Positions 29,831-57,518 of a DNA stretch of 64,000 nucleotides are shown one piece after another (position 1 is the first letter of the stretch; each line of letters opens with the position of its first letter). Position numbers and translations under genes: made by a program. The notes under the pieces were generated by a model that saw nothing but the letters and a program-made list of their open reading frames with translations, was not told the DNA's origin and did not search any database. Source of the DNA: a virus; IMG/VR virus record IMGVR_UViG_3300028844_007948, positions 1 to 64,000 of that record, one strand, 5' to 3'.

Positions 29831-30670
29831 ATGAATGGATCAGGAAAAAGAGTCAAAGACTACCCTTTTATAGAAAAATCAGGGGTTAAGGTTTTAATGG
29901 ATATCTATTATCCTGAAAGTGATTTGGACGACAAGAAGCCGATATTAATATATTACCACGGCGGAGGCTGGGACAAGGGCGATAAAAATAAAATAGAAAT
30001 AGGCTTGTTTAAAAGAGTTTCTCGAAATTTGTTAAGTAAAGGTTTCGCTATTTGCTCAGTAGGATACAGGAAGGGAGATAAATATGCCATAAGAGATTGT
30101 GTGAGTGATTGTCAAGATGCGGTAAAATTTTTAGTTTCAAAAAAAGAGGTTATAGGTATAGACGAAAACAAAATATTTTTATTTGGAGACTCTGCGGGAG
30201 GTCAAATAGCAAAACTCATATCAATGATAAAATGTCCTGATTTCGATGAAGCAAAAAACTTCAAGGATGTAAAATATAGAATAAAAGCTTGTGCATGCTG
30301 GTATAGCCCAGTTGACTTTGGAAATATATCTTTAGACAGAAACCGCAGTAAAGACAGATTTGAACTAAGAATAATGAATAATTCAGACCCCAAGGATAAA
30401 GAGATTCGTTATAAAGAAATTAGTCCTATAAGACATATAAGCAAAGATGATCCAGAACTACTATTAGTACACGGAGAAAAGGATGCCGTTATATCATTTG
30501 CCCATTCAGAAATGATAAGAAATCATTATAAAAAAATAGGAAAAGAAGTAGAGCTATTAAAAATCAAGAATGCTGGGCATAACTTCAGGGAAGTCGAAGG
30601 TGATATATCCCCAAATAAAGATGATATAGTAAAAAAGACCGTTGACTTTTTTTTAAAAAACAAAAGTTAA
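29831..30670 (+). CDS. Alpha/beta-hydrolase (esterase/lipase, HGGGW type)
   Basis: 279 residues. The oxyanion motif YYHGGGWDKGD (residues 41-51), nucleophile elbow GDSAGGQ (Ser121), acid in HGEKDAVIS (Asp218) and base in NAGHNF (His250) are in the expected order for hormone-sensitive lipase-type and kynurenine-formamidase-like esterases. It has no signal peptide. Phage carriage next to fibre genes suggests removal of acyl or acetyl groups from a surface glycan, as with phage-borne esterases. A metabolic role is an alternative. It lies just upstream of the portal promoter region. Confidence 0.8.
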   Translation: MNGSGKRVKDYPFIEKSGVKVLMDIYYPESDLDDKKPILIYYHGGGWDKGDKNKIEIGLFKRVSRNLLSKGFAICSVGYRKGDKYAIRDCVSDCQDAVKFLVSKKEVIGIDENKIFLFGDSAGGQIAKLISMIKCPDFDEAKNFKDVKYRIKACACWYSPVDFGNISLDRNRSKDRFELRIMNNSDPKDKEIRYKEISPIRHISKDDPELLLVHGEKDAVISFAHSEMIRNHYKKIGKEVELLKIKNAGHNFREVEGDISPNKDDIVKKTVDFFLKNKS

Positions 30671-43287: not shown

Positions 43288-46200
43288 ATGCCTCTAAAAA
43301 TACCAACAATACAGGTCGGACTAGAAAAGTCTATACAAAAGGCTGTAAAAAATGTCAGCGCTAGAGGGGGCTTATATTTAAGCTTAAATGATAAAAATTT
43401 CACAAGACCACTAGGCAAAATAACTGGGTCTGTAAGTGAATTTAATAGATCCTTAGAGGCTTCAAATGCTAGAGTATTAGCTTTCGGAGCTTCTGTCGGA
43501 ATGATACAAGGTGTGCAAACTGCATTTAAGGCCTTGTTGCAAACCACCATACAGGTAGAAAAGCAATTAACGGAAATTAATATCGTCATGGGACTGACGA
43601 ATAGCCAATTAGATGATTTCTCAAAAGGATTATTTAAAGTAGCAAAAAATACTGCTCAATCTTTCTCTACTGTAGCTACTGCAGCCACAGAACTAGCAAG
43701 ACAAGGTTTAACAATGGAAGAAACCTTGAAAAGGACAAATGATGCTCTCATACTGACTAGGCTGACTGGATTAGACGCAGCTAGTGCGGTGAATGGTTTA
43801 ACTGCCGCATTAAATACATTTAATAAAGCTGGTCTAGATTCTACTCAAATTTTAAGTAAAATGGCTGCCGTAGACGTGCAGTTTGCTGTTAGCACAGAAG
43901 ATTTAATAGATGCTGTTTCTAGAGCTGGTGCTGTAGCTCAAGATGCAGGAGTTAGTTTTGATGAATTACTAGGTGCTGTTACTGCAGCTCAACAAATGAC
44001 AGCTAGAGGTGGTAAGGTTATCGGTAATAGTTTTAAAACTATTTTCACCCGTGTACAAAGATCTACCACGATTAGTAGGCTTGAGGAGCTTGGAATAGCC
44101 GTAAGAGATGTAGCGGGTAACACACTCCCAGCAATTAGAGTATTAGAAAACTTATCAGCCACTTATGATAAGCTAGCAGATACTACAAAAGCTGCTGTAG
44201 CTGAACAAGTTGGTGGAGTTTTCCAAATAAACATTTTAAAAGCTGCTATAAATGACCTTTCTTCATCAAATAGCATTCTAGCTAGAGCAACTCAAATATC
44301 TGCAAGTGCAAGTGATGAAGCATACAAAAAGAATGAAATATTAAATAGATCATTATCTGCATTATCATCACAAGCAGCAACGAGTATAACTGAATTATCT
44401 AATATAATTGGAGAGATTGGATTCTCGAATCAAATAAGAGATTATCTTACATTTATAAGAGATCAGGTATCAAGCATAAATGATTTTCTCGGTCAAAAAG
44501 AAGGGGAATCTGCTGGAGCTGATTTTGCCAAAGGGCTCATTAAAGGCATAGGTAATGTTATTAGTGGTCCAGGTTTACTATTAGCGGCTGGTGTTTTAAT
44601 AAAATTATTCGCAAAAACTTCTACATTTTTAGTGGGAAGTGCTAAAGAATTGATGGGTGTTGTTAGCGCTAGCCAAAGGCAAAAACAAGTTCAAGAATCA
44701 ATAGTAGCTGTATTAGGGGAAAATAGTAGTCTTCAAAAAAGAATATTAGCCCAAGAGGGAAACAGGGCGGCACAAGAGAAGACCATATTAACATTACTTC
44801 AGGCTCAGTCTAGAGAGCAGCAAAGAATAGCTGCTACAGCAAAAGCTGTTGGACCAGCTATACTAAGAGCTGGATTTAACACCTCTTTACAAAGAGGAGG
44901 GAAGATAGCTAGTAGCGGCTTAATCCCAAACTATGTCACCCCGAAAGAAAAAGAAATGGAAAAACAGGGAGCCAGGGACGGTGGATACACTCCTGGCACC
45001 GTTAAATCCATGGACATAAAAGGAAAAGGAAGAATAATATATAATACAGCGGAAAAAGTTAAAAAATTTTCAGGAATGTCTGAGCCAGCAATATTACCAC
45101 CTTGGAGAAGTAAGGCAGGAAGAAAGTACAAAAACACATTTGAAGAAACTCACGGATTCAACCCTTATGCTAATAAAGGAATGATTCCTAATTATTCAAA
45201 ATCTAGATCTAATATTACTTTTAAGGAGATGGGGGGAGGTCAAATTGGGGGCCCCCCAAGGCAGGTCTTATTTAAATCTACGGTTGGAGGGGAGAAGTTC
45301 ACAGATGCTCAAACAATGGAGATCGTAGACCCCAAAAACGGTGGCAAAATGGGACTGCAAGTTATTTTCACTGGAGACTCTCCCTCCGAAATGAGAGGAA
45401 AAGGATACGGAAGAGAGTTGTACGAATACATGGCGAAGTATGCCAAGAGGAATGGCTACGGAGGCTTATATGGAGATATGGGGACTTCCATATCAGCAAT
45501 GAGAGTTGTAGATAGCATAGCAAAAAGAAAAAGCTTTAAAGTTGAAAAAAATCCAGACTTGAAGTTCATAAAAGATGACTTCGAAGAAGAAGGAATCTGG
45601 GGGAGCGACGACTGGACATATAGATTGTCAAACAAAGGCTTAATCCCGAATTACGGAGCATTTTCTCATGATAAAAATTTATTAGGAAGCTTACTCGCTA
45701 ATGATTTCGCCAAAGATGGAAGGATAAAATATCTTGACGCTCTTAGTTATGTTGACGAAAAAGGTTTAACATCTATATTAAAAAGCTTCAATAAATATGG
45801 AGAGCATGATGGCTGGAAGGCTTCTTGGCCTGGAATGCCCGTCAATCAGTTAATGAAGAATTTCCCCAAATACAGTACTGGCGGAAAACCTTACGATAGT
45901 GGAGCCAAAGGGCTTTACAGTGGATTAACCCCAACAAGAATAAAAGAAATATTAGAGAAGCCTGAAATAACAAGGCAATTTTATAAATATATAACTGGAA
46001 AAACATCCTCAATAGATGTGGAGTCTGGCTTGACACCTCAAGAAAAAGATTATTTTAAATCTAATTTTGGGATGGTTCCTAAATTAAAACACATAGAGGA
46101 CGGTTTCGTTTCCAGTGGGGCGAATCAAAAAAAGAAAAATCTTAATGCACTAAGATATGACTTTCTTAAAGCAGGGCCTAAAGGTGGCAGCTCCACCATG

Positions 46201-49200
46201 AGCAAAATTAAAACTCAGTTCAGGGGAACTCTATTTAAAGACCCTAAAAGAAGAGCTAATCTTTTTAGGCAAAATAATGAATTAGCACCAGATCCTATAC
46301 TGCAATTACCTTATGACCCAGGCAGGAGGCATATTGACCCCAATATAAGAATGGCGCAGCCTGGTGACTACTTAAAAGCCCAGCAATTAAAGCTTGAACA
46401 AGAAATGATGGGGTCTCAATCTGGAATTCTAAGAGGATCCTCTTTTAGAGCTAGTGATATGGGTAGAATGAGGTCAGCACTGTCATTTAATACATCAGCC
46501 AGAGATTATCAAAATAAATTTTTAGTAAACGAATTCGAAGAGTTAATGAAAGGCCAAGAAGGAAAAAGAGATCCAATGTCTTTTTCTAAAGCCGAAAGAA
46601 GAATAAGCGGAAGATTAAAAGTAAATCCAAGAATTAGGAGTTTTTACGAAAATATGACAAGAGCCACTCGATCAAAATGGGGCTTTTCTGGAGGAATGAT
46701 TCCTAATTTTGGATTAAAAATAAATGCTGGAGCCATGAAAAGCATTGGACTTCAGTCTACATTAGGTCAAGCTAAAAGTAGGCAAGAAGGAGTTATAGGC
46801 ATGTCAGAGCTGGATAAAATCCTGCAAAGTAATTTATTTAAATCAATTAAATACCTCCCGCTAAAAAGCGACACTCCAATCATGATAAAAAATGCAAGGT
46901 ATGGAGTTCATAGCTTAAAGAAAGGAGCTCCCCCACCAAAAGGATTCAAAAGTTGGAAAGATTTTGACGAGAATAGCCCACTTGGTAGAACCAGAGTGGT
47001 TTATGCTAAGCCAAAAACTGAATCTGAAAAACCTTTTAAGAGGCTTAAGCTTGAAAGAATAGAAAGTATAAACCATCAAGGAAAAACCCTTACAGTTGAC
47101 CCTAATTTAGCTAACAACGGTTTAATTCCGAACTTTATTTTTAAGAAATTAAAAACTGTATCTCAGGCCGTAAAAACATTTAAAGAGGATACTGGGGCAT
47201 TTTCAGCTGGAACCAGAAATAACATTTGGAGTACTACTCAAAATAAAATCAAGCTGAGATCTAGTAATTACGATGATGTCAGGCAATTTGTTAATAGCAA
47301 GAGTTTTAGACTATTAGATCCAGCAGAACAAAAAAGAATAAAATCCGATCTGAAAGCTCAATCCGAATCATTGAACATGAATGATGTTACCAGGCCTTAT
47401 TTTCAGTATGATGATCCTGATTACCAAGGAGCAATTCATGCAAATAAAGGTTTGATACCAAATTACTCAAAGCTTTTTTCAGAAGGAGCGAAAAATGTTT
47501 TATCTAAAAACCCTCAGTATACTGGAGCTGTTCAAGAAGCAATTCAAAGAGAGGCTTCTTTTGGATTAACCCCCAAGGTCGTGGAAGCTCACTCATTAAA
47601 GAGCTCTAAGAATCCTGGTCTTGCCGTAGTAAACCAAGAGCAGGAATCTGGAAGTTTACAAAAAGCCAGAATTCTTCATGGAGGGTTGAACCCTAATCAA
47701 AAAACTTCAGCCGTTCCCAACTATGCAAAAACACAAGTTGATGTAACCAAAGTACTACAATTAAGAAAAGAATCTGTAAGAAACATAAATGATGTAGGTT
47801 TAAATTCAGTATCTAAATCTTTTGATAGAGCGGCTAATGTGATAGATAAGTTTTCAACAAGCGTCAAAAGCGCTCAATCTTACCTCGGCCAACAAGGTAC
47901 TGAATACGCAAAATCATCAGAGTTAATTAAAGAAGCTAATCTAAGAGAAAAAGCGAGGCTCGGAACTTTAGAAAAAGAGACTTCGGCTAGAAAAAAATAC
48001 ATGAGAGAGGTTCTTAGAAAGGACTCCCTAGCGAAACTTTCTTCACGATCTGGACCAGTAGGAGAATTGGCAACACAATTTATGGGCTCTAGTAATTTTG
48101 AAAAAGATTTAAAATTCAGAATGGGGGTAGCCAAGGAAGCTAATGACTTTGAAACATTAAAAGGTCTGAAAAAGTTTGACAAGGCAATAGACGAAAGTGC
48201 CAGAGGCATGTTTAATAATGCAACCACAAAAGCTAGTATATTAAATAGCCAACTCAGAGAGAGTACAAAAGACGGAAATAAACTAAAAAGATTTCAAGGG
48301 GCAGAAGGTTTTGGCAAAAGAGAAATGAGGAAATTTTTTAGTCAAAGCTTTCTTCAAGAAAGAGGCATCCAAACACTTGACAGTAAAGAGTCCATGAATG
48401 TTATGGCTTCAATGGGAGAAAGGGGAGAAAAAGCATTTCAAGATTATGTAAAATCCCAAGGCGTAATGTCTAGCAATAAAACTTTAGCAAGAGCAGGTCT
48501 TAGAACTGGAGATTTCTCATCATTGCTTGGAGGAAATGATGGAAAAAACTTCATAAAACAATTAGAAAAGTACCAAAGAATGGTTGACGGCGGTGCTAAG
48601 GGCAAGGGCACAGCCAGAAGAGAGCTTATGAGAGAGGCTGCCAGAATTGGTGCAGATTCAGCTTCTTCAGAGAAACTCCAAAGCATGGTGCTTTCAACTC
48701 AAAAACAAGTTAAAGATGATGCTCCTAAAGGAGCACCGCAATCAGCAAGAGATAGAATATCAGGAGGAAGAATTTCTGGAGCTCTTGGATCCTTCCAGTC
48801 TGGAATGTCTGGATCTGGATTAAGATCTCAAGGGTTTATGGGACTCGTTGGGAATAGAGCAGGGCAAGGAATCAATAGATTTGGAACTGGAGCGAAAAAC
48901 TTTATGAAGGGTGGGTTTGGTGCAGCTGGTGGGCAAATGGGATTAGGCCTCTCTATAGCCGCCCCAATGTTAGCGGGCATGGTGGCAAATAAAACCCCAA
49001 GGGAAGATAGAGCCGTATTACAAAATGGACAATTTAATGTTCAGGGAACTGGAGCAGATACGGCATCTAGTACATTGATGGGTGTTGGTATGGGAGCTAT
49101 ATTTGGTGCTCCAGGCGCTATTGTAGGAGGTGTTATAGGATTTGTACAGTCTCTTACGAAGGCAACTCTAACTATAGATGAACAAATAAGAGTAAGAGAA

Positions 49201-52200
49201 AAAGAAATAGCCATCATAGGTCAAAATGTTCAAGCAGCCCAATCTCTTCAGAATTTATCATCAGCTAGGGCTGAAGCTTTTGCCGTAGGAGACTCTGATA
49301 GAATCGCAGAAATTGATACAGCAATGAATAGAGCTTTGGCTGGGGTCAATGATAAAAAAACATTAACAGCTTTAGCTGCATCAGGGGGAGATTCAGATGC
49401 TTTGTCAAAAATACAAAGACAACTACAAGATCAAATGACAAACGCTGTTAGTGTTCAGAATTTTGGAGTAGCTCTAAAGAATTCCGACCAACAAAAAGCA
49501 GCAAAAAATGCTGGAGTTGCAATGGGAGGAATGATAGCCCAAGCAATAAGAAATGAAAATGTAGATGAATCTACTGCACTAGATATATTGAGAAATATAC
49601 AGACTAGTACGGCTCAAAAAGAAAAAAGTGGAATGCTTGACACTAAAAGCCTAAATGCTTTAAGGAAAAAAGCCTCAGGAGGTCAAGAGTTAACCAGTGG
49701 ACTAGGTATGGCAGGAGGTCTTGCTGGAGGACTGATGGCTGGAGGAGCTGCCTTGAGTATGTCTGGAGTAGGCATGCCGCTTGGGTTGGCAATGGCGGCT
49801 GCAGGAGCAGGAATAGGCATATTAAGCGGAAGAGCTATTGAAAGTGGAGCAGCTAAAAGTGATTTAGAAAAACAACAAAAATTAGGATTAGATGAAATTA
49901 ACGAACTATCAAAACTAGTAGATGCTGGAGCGATGACAGAGACTGCAATGAATCAATTAGTTGCAGCTTTTAGGGAGGGAGAAATAAGCATGGGAGATAT
50001 AGCTAAAGAAGCAGAATCTGCCGTTGTAGAGTTTCAAAAAATTAAAAAAGCATCTGATAGAGCAAGCTCTGCGTTATTTAATATAGATCAATCATTCAAA
50101 AGAACTATTGGCAAAATGGTTGTTGATTTAGAAGTTAACAAGATAAGATCAGCAGCTGAATCTAACGCAAGAAAATCGAATGTTAATTTCACATCTCAAT
50201 TCATGTCGCCAATTAGTGCTAGTGATTTCTTAGCAAGAGAACAATCTAAAATATTAGCTTCGGATGCTCAAGGCAGAGTAGGACAATTTCAAAGAGAAAC
50301 AGATATTAATTTCCTTAGAGGAGTTCAATCAAAATCAAAAAGTTTAAATTTCGGCGGGCCACAAATGGAGTTCGTAAGAAAGACGGTCGAAGATCAAGGA
50401 GTTGGCTCGATAGAGTCAATGATCAGAAGAAGGGAAATGTCTGGAGTAATGAATTTAAACCTAAATACAAAAAATCTTGACGATATATTTGAAAAAGTAG
50501 GAGTAAAAGGTGGGGTCGATGCTTTCAATAAAGATAGCAAAATAACAATGCCAGAAAACTTGAACGAACTGAAAGACCTTCTTGGCACTGGAGATAAAGA
50601 TGAACAAAAAAGAATAATGGATGAGCTTGTCGCAAACCTACCTAAGGCAAGACAAGAAGGATCCATGCAAACTAAATTTACAAGAGCTCTTGAAGGAGCA
50701 GATGTTCAAACTTTAACAGAAATAATAGATTTAAGGAAAGAGCAGTTTAGAATTGTTCAGGAGCAAATACTGGCTGAAAGAAAAAATTTAAGCATACAAA
50801 TAGCTCAACAAAAAATACAAACACAAATACAGGCGAAGCTTGAAAGCTTAAGGCAGGAATCTTCAAATAGAAGTATGGCCTTAGACACTAATATGATAGG
50901 TGTGAGAGGGAGGGCTGATACAAACAGATCACTCACTGGTTTTGAAGCTCAATCTCCTATTTTTAGAGGAATGTCTTCTGACGCGGAAGAGTCAAAAAGA
51001 CAGACTGGTCTAAGAAAAAGAGTTTTTGATGAAGATATAAAAGTTAGAAAAGCTGAAGCTTTAAATATGTTAAAAAAAGAGGCTGTCAGACTTTTATCTG
51101 AGAAAAATTTAGTTGATGCATTAAATGATTTAAAATCATCAATAGAAAAAGAAACTGATTTTGCAGCTACAGAAGGAAATCAAGTAGGCTCACAAAAAGG
51201 GCAACAGATTCCAGTAAAGACTGAGCCGTCATCCGCAGCCAGTTCGGCATCTGGAGCGGGAGCTGGAAAAAGTCCAGCTGTAAAAATGGGAAAACAAATG
51301 TCTTCGTTTAAAACGAGCGGAAACAATGAGGAAGGCTCAAAGAGGATAAAGGAAATAGGAAAAAAGATAGATCAAAATAATATAGAAATAAAAACTCAAG
51401 AGAGTAAGCTGAACACTGAAAGTAGTGTAGAAGACACACTAGCAACAAAACTTAAAAAATATAAAGGTGTATTAAAACAACTTGAAAACTTAAATAACTT
51501 GCCTGAAAACAAAACCTCTTTCAGTAAGCCTGGCAATCTATTCAAACGTAACGAACGAGATGATTCAAGAGAAAGCGCAAAAAGAAAACTTCAAGATTTG
51601 GATCTTAATCAATTTTCAAAAGTTACAGGAACTCGCCTTGATGTTTTTGATGGATTTGATTCAGGAGATTCTGGGGGGAGCTATGTACAAACTAGCAGGG
51701 ATGCAACTGATGCCGAAATGATCAAATCAATGACAGATCTTGTTGAAAAAACAGAATCCCAACTACAAGAGACTAGAAGTAAAAAAGGATCTACAGAGAG
51801 TGCTATAGAAAAAGCTAAATCAGAAATCCAAGAACAAAAAAAGCAGATCGAAGAAATAGAAAAGCAAATGGCAGAAGGTGTTGTTGAGCTTTCTGACACT
51901 CTTAAAGGCCAAAATATAAGTTTAAAAAACATCAATGTAGAAAAGACAGCAAATTTAACTAAAGATTTATTTAAGGCTGATTCAATAGAAGGACTTACCG
52001 AAACTCTAAATAAGAATTTAGAAGATATTAAGGCTAATGACCCTTCTGGACAAATAGCTCTTCAGCTTCAAGGATGGGGAGAGTTGGTTAACAATGTTGG
52101 AGCTAGTCTAGATGATGCCGTTCGAGCATTTAACGTAGAAGAGGCTAAGAGAGCTCAAGAAGAATTTAATAGAAATTTGACATTTTCAAATTATTCAAGC

Positions 52201-54018
52201 GGAGCATTTGAGCAGCTTAATGCCATTAATCAAGGACAGAAAACCATTCGCGCTGGTGTTGGAGTAGGAATTATGGATAAAGTTGTTGACCAGGAAAGAA
52301 GGCAACTAAATTTTGACACAATAAACCAAGATCCAACATCAACACCACTAGAAAGAGCAAGAGGAAAAGCAGAACTACAATCATTCACCATAGGAACAAA
52401 AGATCAAAGAGTTCAAATGGGGAGCCTCAGGGACGAACAAGCCCTTCAAAATAGAGATTTAATTGATGCTGAAAGAGACAGATTAAATGCAGTATCCGCA
52501 GGAAAAGCAGCTAAGACTGACGAAGCAAAGTTTGCCGCAAAAAGTGTGGAAGAATCAGCTGTTGCTAGAATAGCAGAATTAAAAGGTACAATAGAAAACC
52601 TTGACAAAAGTATGCTAGACTTAGCTCATCAAATGGAGAGAACTACCCCAAGAGATAAAGGGTTCGTCTCTGAATTTAAACAAAATACATCGATGGGGCT
52701 TGAGTTAGGTTTTGCTGAAATAGAAGCTCAATCTGAGCAAATATATACAAGACTAGGACAAGACTTGCCAATGGTTTTCAGAGATGGTCTTGTAGACGCA
52801 ATGCAAGCAGCCTTAGACGGAAGTCAAAAATTAGGAGATTCCTTTGAGCAAATAGGAATGTCTTTATTACAAAACATACAGAAAGCATTCCTGACAAGTG
52901 CTTCAAACAGAATAACTGGTGCCGTAGGATCTGTGTTTGGGCTAGACGGTTATAATACTGGGGGATATGTAAATGGTGGAAGTGGAATAAAAGATGATGT
53001 CCCAGCGATGTTAATGGGGGGAGAGTATGTAATCAAAAGGAGTGCTGTACAAAAATACGGAGTAAACTTTTTAGAAAACTTAAATCAAGGAAGTATACAA
53101 GGGTTTGCTGGAGGAGGAGCCGTTCTTAATGTAGGATCTCCAATGGCAGCAGAAAGAGAGTCTTATGTAGACAAAAGTAAATATGGAAATGTAACTAGAT
53201 ATAAAACAAAACAAGCTGGTATAGGAATCAATAGTCAGCTTACTGGATATGCAATAGCAAATGATAGAAGTATACAGAAATACTTTAGAGATCAAGAGAC
53301 TCAATTTAATCAGAATTTAAATACAAAAAAACAAGAAGAAGCAAGACAGAAAAATAAAGATTACGAGAAGAAGGCAAAGAAAAGAAGCTTTTGGAATATG
53401 GTTATAGGAATAGCTGGATCCGCTTTATTGGGGAAAGCTGTTCAATGGGGTACTGATAAGTTCAAGCAAACCGATTTTTACAAAAATAGAGCTGCAGCTA
53501 AGGCTGAAAGGTCTATGGCGGATAATGGATATGTTCAAGTAAGAGGTAAAAGCATTCAGCGATTATACCCAAAACCTTCAGACCAATCTGGTGTCAGGAA
53601 AATGATTAGCAATGCCCACAGGGATGGAGGCTGGAAAGCTGCATCTACAATAATGCGGGATAATAATATAAGAGGTACTGTTGACGAAACTGGGGTACAA
53701 CTAAATAAAGGCGGCGCAGTACCAGCAAGGCTTACTGGAGGGGAATATGTAATGAGTCCAGGAGCTGTTAAAACTTATGGCTCTTCATTGATGCAGAATT
53801 TAAACAATGGCTCCATACAAACTGGCGGTCAATCTGGTCAATCTGGTCAAGTAAGTAATGTTTCCCATGGAGATGTGAATATAAGTATAAATGTAGACAA
53901 TTCTGGAGGAGCTTCTTCTGGAGGAGGTTTAAATTCACCAGAGTTTGCGTCAAAAGTCAAGAGTGCAGTAATGAATATAATTTCACAAGAAAAAAGAGTT
54001 GGAGGGAGTTTGAGGTAA
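43288..54018 (+). CDS. Tape measure protein with modular insert
   Basis: 3,576 residues, one of the longer tape measures and implying a long tail. The N-terminus has the TP901-like pattern (TEINIVMGLTNSQLDDFSKG, then ELARQGLTMEETLK). Residues about 540-1480 are made of short modules divided by G-(L/M)-I-P-N-(Y/F) motifs, including a GNAT-like domain near 650-780. Hydrophobic, Gly/Ala-rich segments at about 1875-1950 and 2130-2200 are potential membrane-spanning pieces. The rest is coiled coil. The C-terminal end has repeats such as DDVPAMLMGGEYVIKRSAV and ARLTGGEYVMSPGAV, typical of tape measures. The start follows AAGGAATAAGGAA. Confidence 0.92.
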   Translation: MPLKIPTIQVGLEKSIQKAVKNVSARGGLYLSLNDKNFTRPLGKITGSVSEFNRSLEASNARVLAFGASVGMIQGVQTAFKALLQTTIQVEKQLTEINIVMGLTNSQLDDFSKGLFKVAKNTAQSFSTVATAATELARQGLTMEETLKRTNDALILTRLTGLDAASAVNGLTAALNTFNKAGLDSTQILSKMAAVDVQFAVSTEDLIDAVSRAGAVAQDAGVSFDELLGAVTAAQQMTARGGKVIGNSFKTIFTRVQRSTTISRLEELGIAVRDVAGNTLPAIRVLENLSATYDKLADTTKAAVAEQVGGVFQINILKAAINDLSSSNSILARATQISASASDEAYKKNEILNRSLSALSSQAATSITELSNIIGEIGFSNQIRDYLTFIRDQVSSINDFLGQKEGESAGADFAKGLIKGIGNVISGPGLLLAAGVLIKLFAKTSTFLVGSAKELMGVVSASQRQKQVQESIVAVLGENSSLQKRILAQEGNRAAQEKTILTLLQAQSREQQRIAATAKAVGPAILRAGFNTSLQRGGKIASSGLIPNYVTPKEKEMEKQGARDGGYTPGTVKSMDIKGKGRIIYNTAEKVKKFSGMSEPAILPPWRSKAGRKYKNTFEETHGFNPYANKGMIPNYSKSRSNITFKEMGGGQIGGPPRQVLFKSTVGGEKFTDAQTMEIVDPKNGGKMGLQVIFTGDSPSEMRGKGYGRELYEYMAKYAKRNGYGGLYGDMGTSISAMRVVDSIAKRKSFKVEKNPDLKFIKDDFEEEGIWGSDDWTYRLSNKGLIPNYGAFSHDKNLLGSLLANDFAKDGRIKYLDALSYVDEKGLTSILKSFNKYGEHDGWKASWPGMPVNQLMKNFPKYSTGGKPYDSGAKGLYSGLTPTRIKEILEKPEITRQFYKYITGKTSSIDVESGLTPQEKDYFKSNFGMVPKLKHIEDGFVSSGANQKKKNLNALRYDFLKAGPKGGSSTMSKIKTQFRGTLFKDPKRRANLFRQNNELAPDPILQLPYDPGRRHIDPNIRMAQPGDYLKAQQLKLEQEMMGSQSGILRGSSFRASDMGRMRSALSFNTSARDYQNKFLVNEFEELMKGQEGKRDPMSFSKAERRISGRLKVNPRIRSFYENMTRATRSKWGFSGGMIPNFGLKINAGAMKSIGLQSTLGQAKSRQEGVIGMSELDKILQSNLFKSIKYLPLKSDTPIMIKNARYGVHSLKKGAPPPKGFKSWKDFDENSPLGRTRVVYAKPKTESEKPFKRLKLERIESINHQGKTLTVDPNLANNGLIPNFIFKKLKTVSQAVKTFKEDTGAFSAGTRNNIWSTTQNKIKLRSSNYDDVRQFVNSKSFRLLDPAEQKRIKSDLKAQSESLNMNDVTRPYFQYDDPDYQGAIHANKGLIPNYSKLFSEGAKNVLSKNPQYTGAVQEAIQREASFGLTPKVVEAHSLKSSKNPGLAVVNQEQESGSLQKARILHGGLNPNQKTSAVPNYAKTQVDVTKVLQLRKESVRNINDVGLNSVSKSFDRAANVIDKFSTSVKSAQSYLGQQGTEYAKSSELIKEANLREKARLGTLEKETSARKKYMREVLRKDSLAKLSSRSGPVGELATQFMGSSNFEKDLKFRMGVAKEANDFETLKGLKKFDKAIDESARGMFNNATTKASILNSQLRESTKDGNKLKRFQGAEGFGKREMRKFFSQSFLQERGIQTLDSKESMNVMASMGERGEKAFQDYVKSQGVMSSNKTLARAGLRTGDFSSLLGGNDGKNFIKQLEKYQRMVDGGAKGKGTARRELMREAARIGADSASSEKLQSMVLSTQKQVKDDAPKGAPQSARDRISGGRISGALGSFQSGMSGSGLRSQGFMGLVGNRAGQGINRFGTGAKNFMKGGFGAAGGQMGLGLSIAAPMLAGMVANKTPREDRAVLQNGQFNVQGTGADTASSTLMGVGMGAIFGAPGAIVGGVIGFVQSLTKATLTIDEQIRVREKEIAIIGQNVQAAQSLQNLSSARAEAFAVGDSDRIAEIDTAMNRALAGVNDKKTLTALAASGGDSDALSKIQRQLQDQMTNAVSVQNFGVALKNSDQQKAAKNAGVAMGGMIAQAIRNENVDESTALDILRNIQTSTAQKEKSGMLDTKSLNALRKKASGGQELTSGLGMAGGLAGGLMAGGAALSMSGVGMPLGLAMAAAGAGIGILSGRAIESGAAKSDLEKQQKLGLDEINELSKLVDAGAMTETAMNQLVAAFREGEISMGDIAKEAESAVVEFQKIKKASDRASSALFNIDQSFKRTIGKMVVDLEVNKIRSAAESNARKSNVNFTSQFMSPISASDFLAREQSKILASDAQGRVGQFQRETDINFLRGVQSKSKSLNFGGPQMEFVRKTVEDQGVGSIESMIRRREMSGVMNLNLNTKNLDDIFEKVGVKGGVDAFNKDSKITMPENLNELKDLLGTGDKDEQKRIMDELVANLPKARQEGSMQTKFTRALEGADVQTLTEIIDLRKEQFRIVQEQILAERKNLSIQIAQQKIQTQIQAKLESLRQESSNRSMALDTNMIGVRGRADTNRSLTGFEAQSPIFRGMSSDAEESKRQTGLRKRVFDEDIKVRKAEALNMLKKEAVRLLSEKNLVDALNDLKSSIEKETDFAATEGNQVGSQKGQQIPVKTEPSSAASSASGAGAGKSPAVKMGKQMSSFKTSGNNEEGSKRIKEIGKKIDQNNIEIKTQESKLNTESSVEDTLATKLKKYKGVLKQLENLNNLPENKTSFSKPGNLFKRNERDDSRESAKRKLQDLDLNQFSKVTGTRLDVFDGFDSGDSGGSYVQTSRDATDAEMIKSMTDLVEKTESQLQETRSKKGSTESAIEKAKSEIQEQKKQIEEIEKQMAEGVVELSDTLKGQNISLKNINVEKTANLTKDLFKADSIEGLTETLNKNLEDIKANDPSGQIALQLQGWGELVNNVGASLDDAVRAFNVEEAKRAQEEFNRNLTFSNYSSGAFEQLNAINQGQKTIRAGVGVGIMDKVVDQERRQLNFDTINQDPTSTPLERARGKAELQSFTIGTKDQRVQMGSLRDEQALQNRDLIDAERDRLNAVSAGKAAKTDEAKFAAKSVEESAVARIAELKGTIENLDKSMLDLAHQMERTTPRDKGFVSEFKQNTSMGLELGFAEIEAQSEQIYTRLGQDLPMVFRDGLVDAMQAALDGSQKLGDSFEQIGMSLLQNIQKAFLTSASNRITGAVGSVFGLDGYNTGGYVNGGSGIKDDVPAMLMGGEYVIKRSAVQKYGVNFLENLNQGSIQGFAGGGAVLNVGSPMAAERESYVDKSKYGNVTRYKTKQAGIGINSQLTGYAIANDRSIQKYFRDQETQFNQNLNTKKQEEARQKNKDYEKKAKKRSFWNMVIGIAGSALLGKAVQWGTDKFKQTDFYKNRAAAKAERSMADNGYVQVRGKSIQRLYPKPSDQSGVRKMISNAHRDGGWKAASTIMRDNNIRGTVDETGVQLNKGGAVPARLTGGEYVMSPGAVKTYGSSLMQNLNNGSIQTGGQSGQSGQVSNVSHGDVNISINVDNSGGASSGGGLNSPEFASKVKSAVMNIISQEKRVGGSLR
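44917..47724 (+). repeat. Dispersed G-(L/M)-I-P-N-(Y/F) motif array within the tape measure
   Basis: Copies start at bases 44917, 45178, 45637, 46069 (degenerate, GMVPKL), 46693, 47119, 47449 and 47707 (degenerate, SAVPNY). Protein positions are about 544, 631, 784, 928, 1136, 1278, 1388 and 1474. The gaps are 87 to 208 residues and each holds a different sequence. Similar motifs are something I remember from other marine phage proteins, where they divide unrelated small domains. Confidence 0.75.
45202..45636 (+). other. GNAT acetyltransferase-like domain embedded in the tape measure
   Basis: The module between motifs 2 and 3. The acetyl-CoA-binding signature R-G-K-G-Y-G (residues 703-708) starts a helix ELYEYMAKYAKRNGYGGLYG, preceded by a beta strand GLQVIFTGDSPSE. 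GNAT enzymes show R/Q-x-x-G-x-G/A followed by such a helix. A later SAMRVVDSIAKRKSFKVEKN fits the last helix-strand unit. No enzymatic activity is proven. Confidence 0.65.
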
Positions 54019-56612: not shown

Positions 56613-57518
56613 ATGGCATTTCTAAAAAAAGAAGAGGTAAACGCGGAACTATTTAATCATAGCAAAAATTCCTGTATAGAATTTTTAGAAATATCAGAGA
56701 TTCCAAACTCCAGCGATGTTATAAGATTCCACGGGGGTTTAAATTCGATACATGAATCTGTTTACTTTGATAGTAAAGAATATTTTTACATACCATATGA
56801 GGGTAGTGATTTCGGGACCAGATCTGACGGAAGAGTTTCAAGGCCGACTATAAAGATCATAAACTTTAGCGGTTTTCTTTCTAAATTTATGATGGGCAAA
56901 GATGATCTACTAAAATCAAGGGTTAAGAGAATTAGAACTTTCTTTAGATTCCTGGATAAAGAAAACTTTTTAAATTATGATTCAGAGAAGCAATTCTGGG
57001 ACTCAATGGGAATAAACCCTGATCCAGAAGCTGTACTCAGGCCTGATATTTGGTATATAAATCAAAAAATAGAAGAAAATAAATTCTTTGTCGAGTTTGA
57101 GCTTTCTAATGCATTAGATTTAGAGGGGTCAACTCTACCAAGAAGACAAATAATAAACAATTATTGCTATTGGAAATACAGAGGGAAGGGATGCAGGTAT
57201 TCAGGGGGAGTCGTTGCAGATTCTAATAATGTTAAATTTGACAAAACGAGCTTAACACCAAAAGGTGAGTGGGCCGAAGGCATTGATTATGTTTTAGGAA
57301 ATGTAGTTTATTTATGGACTAGAGAGGGGCACGGGCAAAGAGCTTTAATGTATGTTTGCACTGAACCTCACACATCTTCAGATGAAACCAGACCTTCAAT
57401 AAATTCTAAAAATTGGGCAATGGATGCATGCTCGAAAACATTAAAAGGATGCAGAATGAGATTTGGTGAGAAATCCGTACTTCCTTATGGCGGATTCCCG
57501 TCAAGTAGACTTTACTAA
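56613..57518 (+). CDS. Tail tip protein, lambda gpL-like, with Fe-S-type cysteines
   Basis: 301 residues. The family signature is clear: NNYCYWKYRGKGCRYSGG near residues 185-200, then DACSKTLKGCRMRFGE and LPYGGFPSSRLY at the C-terminus. In lambda gpL the four Cys bind an iron-sulfur cluster, and the same four-Cys arrangement is present here. It functions in the tail tip ring. The N-terminal 150 residues hold the beta-rich gpL domain. Confidence 0.88.
   Translation: MAFLKKEEVNAELFNHSKNSCIEFLEISEIPNSSDVIRFHGGLNSIHESVYFDSKEYFYIPYEGSDFGTRSDGRVSRPTIKIINFSGFLSKFMMGKDDLLKSRVKRIRTFFRFLDKENFLNYDSEKQFWDSMGINPDPEAVLRPDIWYINQKIEENKFFVEFELSNALDLEGSTLPRRQIINNYCYWKYRGKGCRYSGGVVADSNNVKFDKTSLTPKGEWAEGIDYVLGNVVYLWTREGHGQRALMYVCTEPHTSSDETRPSINSKNWAMDACSKTLKGCRMRFGEKSVLPYGGFPSSRLY

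Follow-up and report, generated by a model that had tools for sequence, protein, structure and literature searches.

Exchangeable modules bordered by a six-residue motif in the tape measure protein of an uncultured phage

The tape measure gene and its module array

The window analysed here is a 64,000-nucleotide stretch of DNA, positions 1 to 64,000 of the 163,424-bp virus record IMGVR_UViG_3300028844_007948 in IMG/VR, and its subject is a forward-strand gene at 43288-54018 that encodes a tape measure protein (TMP) of 3,576 amino acids (aa). The protein matches PF10145 (E=1.9e-25) and five tape-measure PHROGs. Its N-terminal part (aa 1-543; 43288..44916), which measures 537-543 aa in relatives, contains the PhageMin_Tail domain (PF10145, 1.9e-25; phrog_4211, 5.5e-54), and the remainder (aa 1474-3576, 2,103 residues; 47707..54018) corresponds to 2,029-2,193 aa in relatives, with identities of 34-60%. 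Between the two lies an array of modules, spanning aa 544 to 1479, whose borders are marked by a repeated short motif. The gene is identified as a tape measure gene by its N-terminal domain, by a nearby tail gene and by ruler parts of conserved length. The tail gene, a homologue of the lambda-type minor tail protein L, lies downstream at 56613-57518, and the tail is therefore of siphophage type; the record carries terminase-like as well as lambda-type tail genes, as expected of a phage and not of a contractile injection system locus.

Six exact copies of the motif G[LM]IPN[YF] begin at aa 544, 631, 784, 1136, 1278 and 1388 (DNA positions 44917, 45178, 45637, 46693, 47119 and 47449), while not one of 2,000 shuffles of the TMP contained any match. 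The wider pattern G-x-[IVL]-P-N-[YF] is absent from every other frame of the window and from frames longer than 60 aa across the remainder of the record. The codons of the six exact copies differ synonymously, so the conservation of the motif acts at the protein level. Two inexact copies are also present. SAVPNY (aa 1474-1479; 47707..47724, forward strand) is taken as a degenerate but true last border because relatives show AAVPNY, SGVPNY, GEVPNF or GFIPNY at that place; GLNPNQ (aa 1466) falls within the last module and is hence no border. A preliminary description of this DNA, which located the open reading frame and the array correctly, had counted eight copies and seven segments; its six exact copies stand, but the array is better described as seven borders enclosing six segments.

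All six segments lie on the forward strand, and each begins with its border. The first (GLIPNY, aa 544-630; 44917..45177) is the entry module M1, a conserved first module (alignment A5) with a compact AlphaFold fold. It is followed by a GNAT acetyltransferase-like module (GMIPNY, aa 631-783; 45178..45636); by m2 (GLIPNY, aa 784-1135; 45637..46692), which is helical, has a low-confidence model and diverges fastest of the modules; by m1 (GMIPNF, aa 1136-1277; 46693..47118), an alpha/beta domain (alignment A4); and by m11 (GLIPNF, aa 1278-1387; 47119..47448), with homologues in the relatives designated L008, L004 and L182. The series closes with the exit module M0 (GLIPNY, aa 1388-1473; 47449..47706), a conserved last module whose cluster has 94 members. 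Clustering assigns the six segments to six different clusters with no mutual resemblance, as the preliminary description had stated.

Predicted folds of the modules

Structures were predicted for co-linear pieces of the array (M1 with GNAT, and m2 with m1), since an aligner stacks shuffled fragments wrongly. The M1 and GNAT model has a mean predicted local distance difference test (pLDDT) score of 83, with values of 84-96 over most of both domains and weaker linkers at the motifs. In the second model the alpha/beta domain of m1 reaches about 70-88 over most of its length, m2 is helical and poorly predicted, and the motif between them falls below 50, so that the motifs are placed in low-confidence linkers in both AlphaFold models. 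The earlier suggestion that the modules are compact thus holds for the first two segments and for most of the fourth, but not for the third.

Module 2 is, on the evidence of its model, a GNAT acetyltransferase-like fold: Foldseek matches in PDB and BFVD are almost all GNATs, and the acetyl-CoA motif [QR]-x-x-G-x-[GA] is present, with R73, G74, G76, Y77 and G78 invariant in alignment A3 and RGxGYG invariant across nine homologues of the module. PDB profile searches with the GNAT and m1 modules returned no relevant match, and a fold search with m2 and m1 returned none. Pfam scans of the TMP and its segments found no intein or self-splicing family, and an intein insert is accordingly rejected.

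Spread of the motif among viruses

The distribution of the array was examined by two routes, one of which made no use of the motif and the other no use of tape measure references. When IMG/VR was queried with aa 1-543 of the window TMP, 19 loci were recovered, of which one is identical to the window over these residues and one stops short of the array site. All 17 remaining relatives (17/17) carry a series of G-x-[IV]-P-N-[FY] motifs at the same position of the TMP, the first at aa 538-541, or at 506 where the contig lacks the start of the gene, and the second nearly always 87 aa later, with variable spacing thereafter. An independent scan of IMG/VR for DNA encoding GFIPNFA listed at least 120 loci, at least 104 of which have two or more copies of the motif in one reading frame. 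At least 73 of these 104 frames show a TMP N-terminus, most of the others being cut by the end of the contig or locus, and in the multi-motif TMPs the first motif groups at aa ~540-570 or 625-650.

Among 462 distinct instances of the motif, position 2 is F, Y, H or L, position 3 is I or V in 96%, position 6 is F or Y in 98%, the following residue is A in 67%, and A, S, K and G are frequent among the residues that precede the motif. Because G, P and N are fixed by the search pattern, the degree of conservation in this set is partly due to the selection of matches; the window family, which was collected without the motif, has the same motif core. The conjecture that the motif may be a general module border is borne out by its recurrence in more than 100 other viral contigs, mostly in recognisable TMPs, and the IMG/VR scan together with the models leaves neither of the two outcomes that would have told against the preliminary description, namely disorder in every segment and a motif confined to this phage. 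An assembly artefact is ruled out by independent contigs from many metagenomes and by four array-bearing contigs in metagenome-assembled genomes, two of them assigned to Flavobacteriales, one to Neomarinimicrobiota and one to Bacteria; these assignments, which may reflect the binning of phage contigs, hint weakly at marine Flavobacteriia as hosts.

Matches to GenBank phages are limited to the N-terminal part of the TMP, and the INPHARED phage collection gave no match for GNAT, m2 with m1, most of an array, M0 or M1. Scans with the GNAT and m1 modules for occurrences outside TMPs returned mainly contigs already found. No description of the motif or the array was met in the open literature on tape measure cargo and domains that was searched, most subscription papers lying outside it.

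Some loci depart from the usual layout. In L034, L096 and L106 a single GFIPNFA occurs late in a TMP-like frame (~aa 569-1044 of partial frames) and is followed by an M0-like stretch instead of the usual array. In L074 (~aa 570-640 of the frame) and L084 the first full motif of the TMP stands at about aa 630, and M1 is replaced by an alternative entry segment, VxIPNFxFGxGKKGxxVAxTxEYxVPN..., which itself holds IPNF and VPN[FY] cores. A DDxPAML..GEYV pattern is present in 14 of the 104 multi-motif frames.

Exchange of modules at the motif

If the motif is a module border, then homology between arrays should begin and end there. To follow the modules from one TMP to another, the arrays were cut at the motif and the segments clustered (in the family table the GNAT module is m4, and M1 and M0 are m0 and m5). 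The common layout is a conserved M1, a run of variable cassettes and a conserved M0, with borders bearing [IV]PN[FY]; two borders without the full motif keep its core (QIPNFS and GVPNFA). The order M1-GNAT-m2-m1-m11-M0 of the window becomes M1-m2-m1-GNAT-M0 in L003, M1-m1-GNAT-m2(+m11)-M0 in L004 and M1-m6-m1-m2-GNAT-m10-M0 in L017, and in L016 both m7 and m1 are duplicated. For the broad set, clustering of 410 segments yields 91 clusters: M1 (47 members) is the common first module, M0 (94 members) the common last one, and variable modules stand between.

The breakpoints can be located without cutting the arrays beforehand. In a BLAST comparison of uncut arrays, 58% of homology ends lie no more than 10 aa from a motif, compared with 14% of random points; when the motif was masked in the window family, 67% of ends lay no more than 5 aa from the masked block (13% of random points), and both figures are given because masking itself draws alignment ends somewhat. 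At the DNA level, the GNAT modules of L005 and L016 share a block of 92% identity that opens with the first nucleotide of the module's own motif and closes exactly with the final nucleotide of the one that follows (GHVPNYA). Past this block the match is lost, and m1 of the same pair shows the same motif-to-motif block. Between L005 and L007, whose N-terminal regions are 92.6% identical, two cassettes stand in place of one and the DNA match stops at the motifs.

Module identity exceeds backbone identity in several pairs, the GNAT modules being 87.8% identical in protein sequence in L005 and L016 (76.3% in the N-terminus) and 94.7% identical in L003 and L014 (81.1%). L182 has the module order of the window, yet its m2 is only 25% identical while its N-terminus is 90% identical. 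These comparisons of sequence show that cassettes are exchanged, reordered, duplicated, gained and lost, and that the breakpoints fall at the motif, which is a module border at the level of both protein and DNA. A DNA element alone, be it a repeat or a recombination site, does not account for the motif, because its codons vary synonymously, although recombination does break there.

Array length and composition

A tape measure sets a length, and a segment that belongs to the ruler should share the length conservation of the rest. Nine distinct TMPs were compared, the N-terminal length of L008 being assumed because the start of the gene is missing from its contig. The stretch that precedes the array measures 540 ± 1.6 aa (coefficient of variation 0.3%) and the part after it 2,112 ± 53 aa (2.5%) despite 34-60% identity to the window, while the array measures 1,041 ± 277 aa and ranges from 678 to 1,525 (27%). 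Judged by these lengths, the array is not part of the ruler, since it is exempt from the length conservation of the other TMP parts. It also differs in composition, with 15.1% glycine plus proline (9-14% elsewhere in the TMP) and 10.5% aromatics plus histidine (4.4-7.2% elsewhere), and it is more basic than all other parts save the extreme C-terminal one.

Cassettes in other arrays

Several distinct effector-type domains can be carried per polypeptide, a GNAT in the window and other enzyme types in relatives. Matches above the Pfam cut-offs are an SNase cassette in L119 (2e-9), a cassette of the nucleotidyltransferase-related family PF16581 in L067 (3e-8) and a further GNAT cassette in L117; PGDYG in L009 and HATPase in L058 fall just below their cut-offs, and a P-loop NTPase cassette was recognised by PDB profile (2e-6). 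The frequent cassette type formed by M2, M3, M8 and M18 has the pattern G-x-[IV]FE...FDF...[DE]AK and resembles PD-(D/E)XK nucleases, while M9 looks kinase-like (GVKKF, DLHGSN, DPG); both likenesses were drawn by eye, and PDB profile searches gave no confirmation of either. Module m15 (L009, segment 13676-14233) has by eye the look of an ADP-ribosyltransferase and no Pfam match. Hydrophobic stretches can be read in the sequence of m8. No peptidase family was found among 107 representative modules scanned. The TMP of the contig of L067 (L148) is a 5,143-aa frame with P-loop-like and nucleotidyltransferase-related cassettes in one long segment. About 13 kb upstream of the TMP gene, positions 29831-30670 of the window encode an alpha/beta hydrolase that belongs to the BD-FAE esterase family (E=8e-41).

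Discussion

We consider it probable that the TMP holds a motif-delimited array of cassettes which are virion-borne proteins delivered together with it, a reading in which both the delivery and the role of the motif are inferred from sequence. Phage tails that have been solved hold the TMP in their lumen as a trimer, N-terminus at the head and C-terminus at the tip, and the protein exits together with the DNA (PMC11661146, PMC10713586); in lambda, the TMP lies near an inner-membrane complex as injection proceeds (PMC13190303). The array would accordingly be carried in the virion as part of the TMP and would move with it towards the host ahead of the DNA. Since it begins about 540 residues from the head-proximal end, it would ride in the upper tail and leave late, near the DNA. 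The cassettes would then act as infection begins, their targets being proteins, nucleic acids or defences of the host. Such a role would account for their turnover and would make them candidates for proteins active in the host before phage gene expression.

Under such delivery the motif, lying in a flexible linker, may be what a shared partner recognises, and would so also be a safe place for recombination. Exchange at the motif is to be expected because all cassettes share this stretch, and a swap there leaves the domains whole. A passive linker would fit less well than a recognition role, be it in docking, in packing or in processing by a dedicated factor: the motif is conserved as a peptide between modules that are unrelated, lies in flexible linkers and is absent from the other proteins of the phage. 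Given that the cassettes are cargo, a docking or packing signal is a plausible but tentative choice, and a processing site and a passive hinge are each somewhat doubtful.

Three points weigh against this reading: the GNAT module scores 18.3 bits against a Pfam cut-off of 20.7, many cassettes, m2, m1 and m11 among them, have no identified function, and three copies of folded domains must be reconciled with a narrow tube, though the domains may be unfolded, or removed before assembly.

The same motif could instead mark cleavage sites in a polyprotein, with a phage or host protease cutting the TMP at the borders during assembly or entry and freeing the cassettes. In favour of this, the motif is short and strict, lies in flexible linkers and is present at every border even between unrelated modules; TMP proteolysis near the C-terminus is known in T5-like phages (PMC10713586), and gels of 80alpha often show the TMP in fragments (PMC11661146). 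However, cuts at the borders would detach the ruler from the 540 residues at the head-proximal end if the fragments did not remain associated, the scanned cassettes include no peptidase family, no protease is linked to the motif, and the motif occurs in no other protein of the phage, an absence which also disfavours a site for a head or maturation protease. We regard cleavage as unlikely.

A slightly less likely explanation is that the modules are structural parts of the tail or injection machinery, such as adaptors on the receptor side or for crossing the envelope, with variation that follows the envelope of the host. TMPs elsewhere contact host membrane proteins and bear muralytic domains (PMC13190303, PMC1796659), and the hydrophobic stretches of some modules (m8) would suit such a role; but the GNAT, SNase, P-loop and nucleotidyltransferase-related cassettes are intracellular enzyme types, and module order and number vary freely. 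It is highly improbable that a single TMP site merely tolerates junk domains acquired by illegitimate recombination, with the motif as the surviving junction, since, although insertions are limited to one position and divergence is faster in the array than in the N-terminus, the motif peptide is constant while its codons vary, M1 and M0 are conserved over very diverse TMPs, and the cassettes stay open, the GNAT retaining its cofactor motif.

Delivery of the cassettes with the TMP can be set beside several known systems. Polyvalent proteins are likewise multi-domain, predicted to be delivered with the DNA and built of exchangeable enzyme domains that include GNATs (Iyer et al. 2017, PMC5512222); they differ in that the present array is carried by a TMP, has one short shared border motif and swaps at it, and in that their pervasive internal peptidase has no counterpart among the representative modules. 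The paper on polyvalent proteins makes no mention of tape measure proteins (PMC5512222). The tape-measure-related effectors of contractile injection systems (Sle1, PMC13277306; Tme, PMC11126660) similarly combine a TMP-like coiled coil with variable functional domains as cargo of the tail tube, but they belong to bacterial nanomachines and have a C-terminal functional domain, whereas here a phage TMP carries several internal cassettes with motif borders. Muralytic TMPs (TM4, PMC1796659; SPbeta YomI) also hold additional enzyme domains, in their case one or two peptidoglycan hydrolases for entry, as opposed to a swappable series of other folds, none of them recognised as muralytic.

Polymorphic toxin systems have a conserved carrier and exchangeable domains, with exchange at a conserved border. 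The array shares these features, but its cassettes are internal and several stand in series. It is a TMP with extra domains, a known kind in a new form, and there is a serious case for more. More speculatively, the TMPs of a large group of uncultured phages could be delivery racks in which G-x-[IV]-P-N-[FY] marks cassettes for loading or release in the tail tube and recombination at this signature shuffles dozens of effector domains through the site, which would be the phage equivalent of the way contractile injection systems load their effectors.

If the cassettes are indeed delivered, then the tail ruler, which serves as length gauge and as pilot for DNA entry, would double in a widespread group of uncultured phages as a cassette system for virion-borne proteins. 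It would offer a rich source of early-acting phage proteins, possibly including counter-defence domains, which a search for a six-residue signature can locate, together with a candidate signal for the carriage of cargo in phage tails. It would also show the shuffling of domains with unusual clarity, the breakpoints being visible, and how folded domains are fitted into a narrow tail tube, or kept out of it, would become a testable question.

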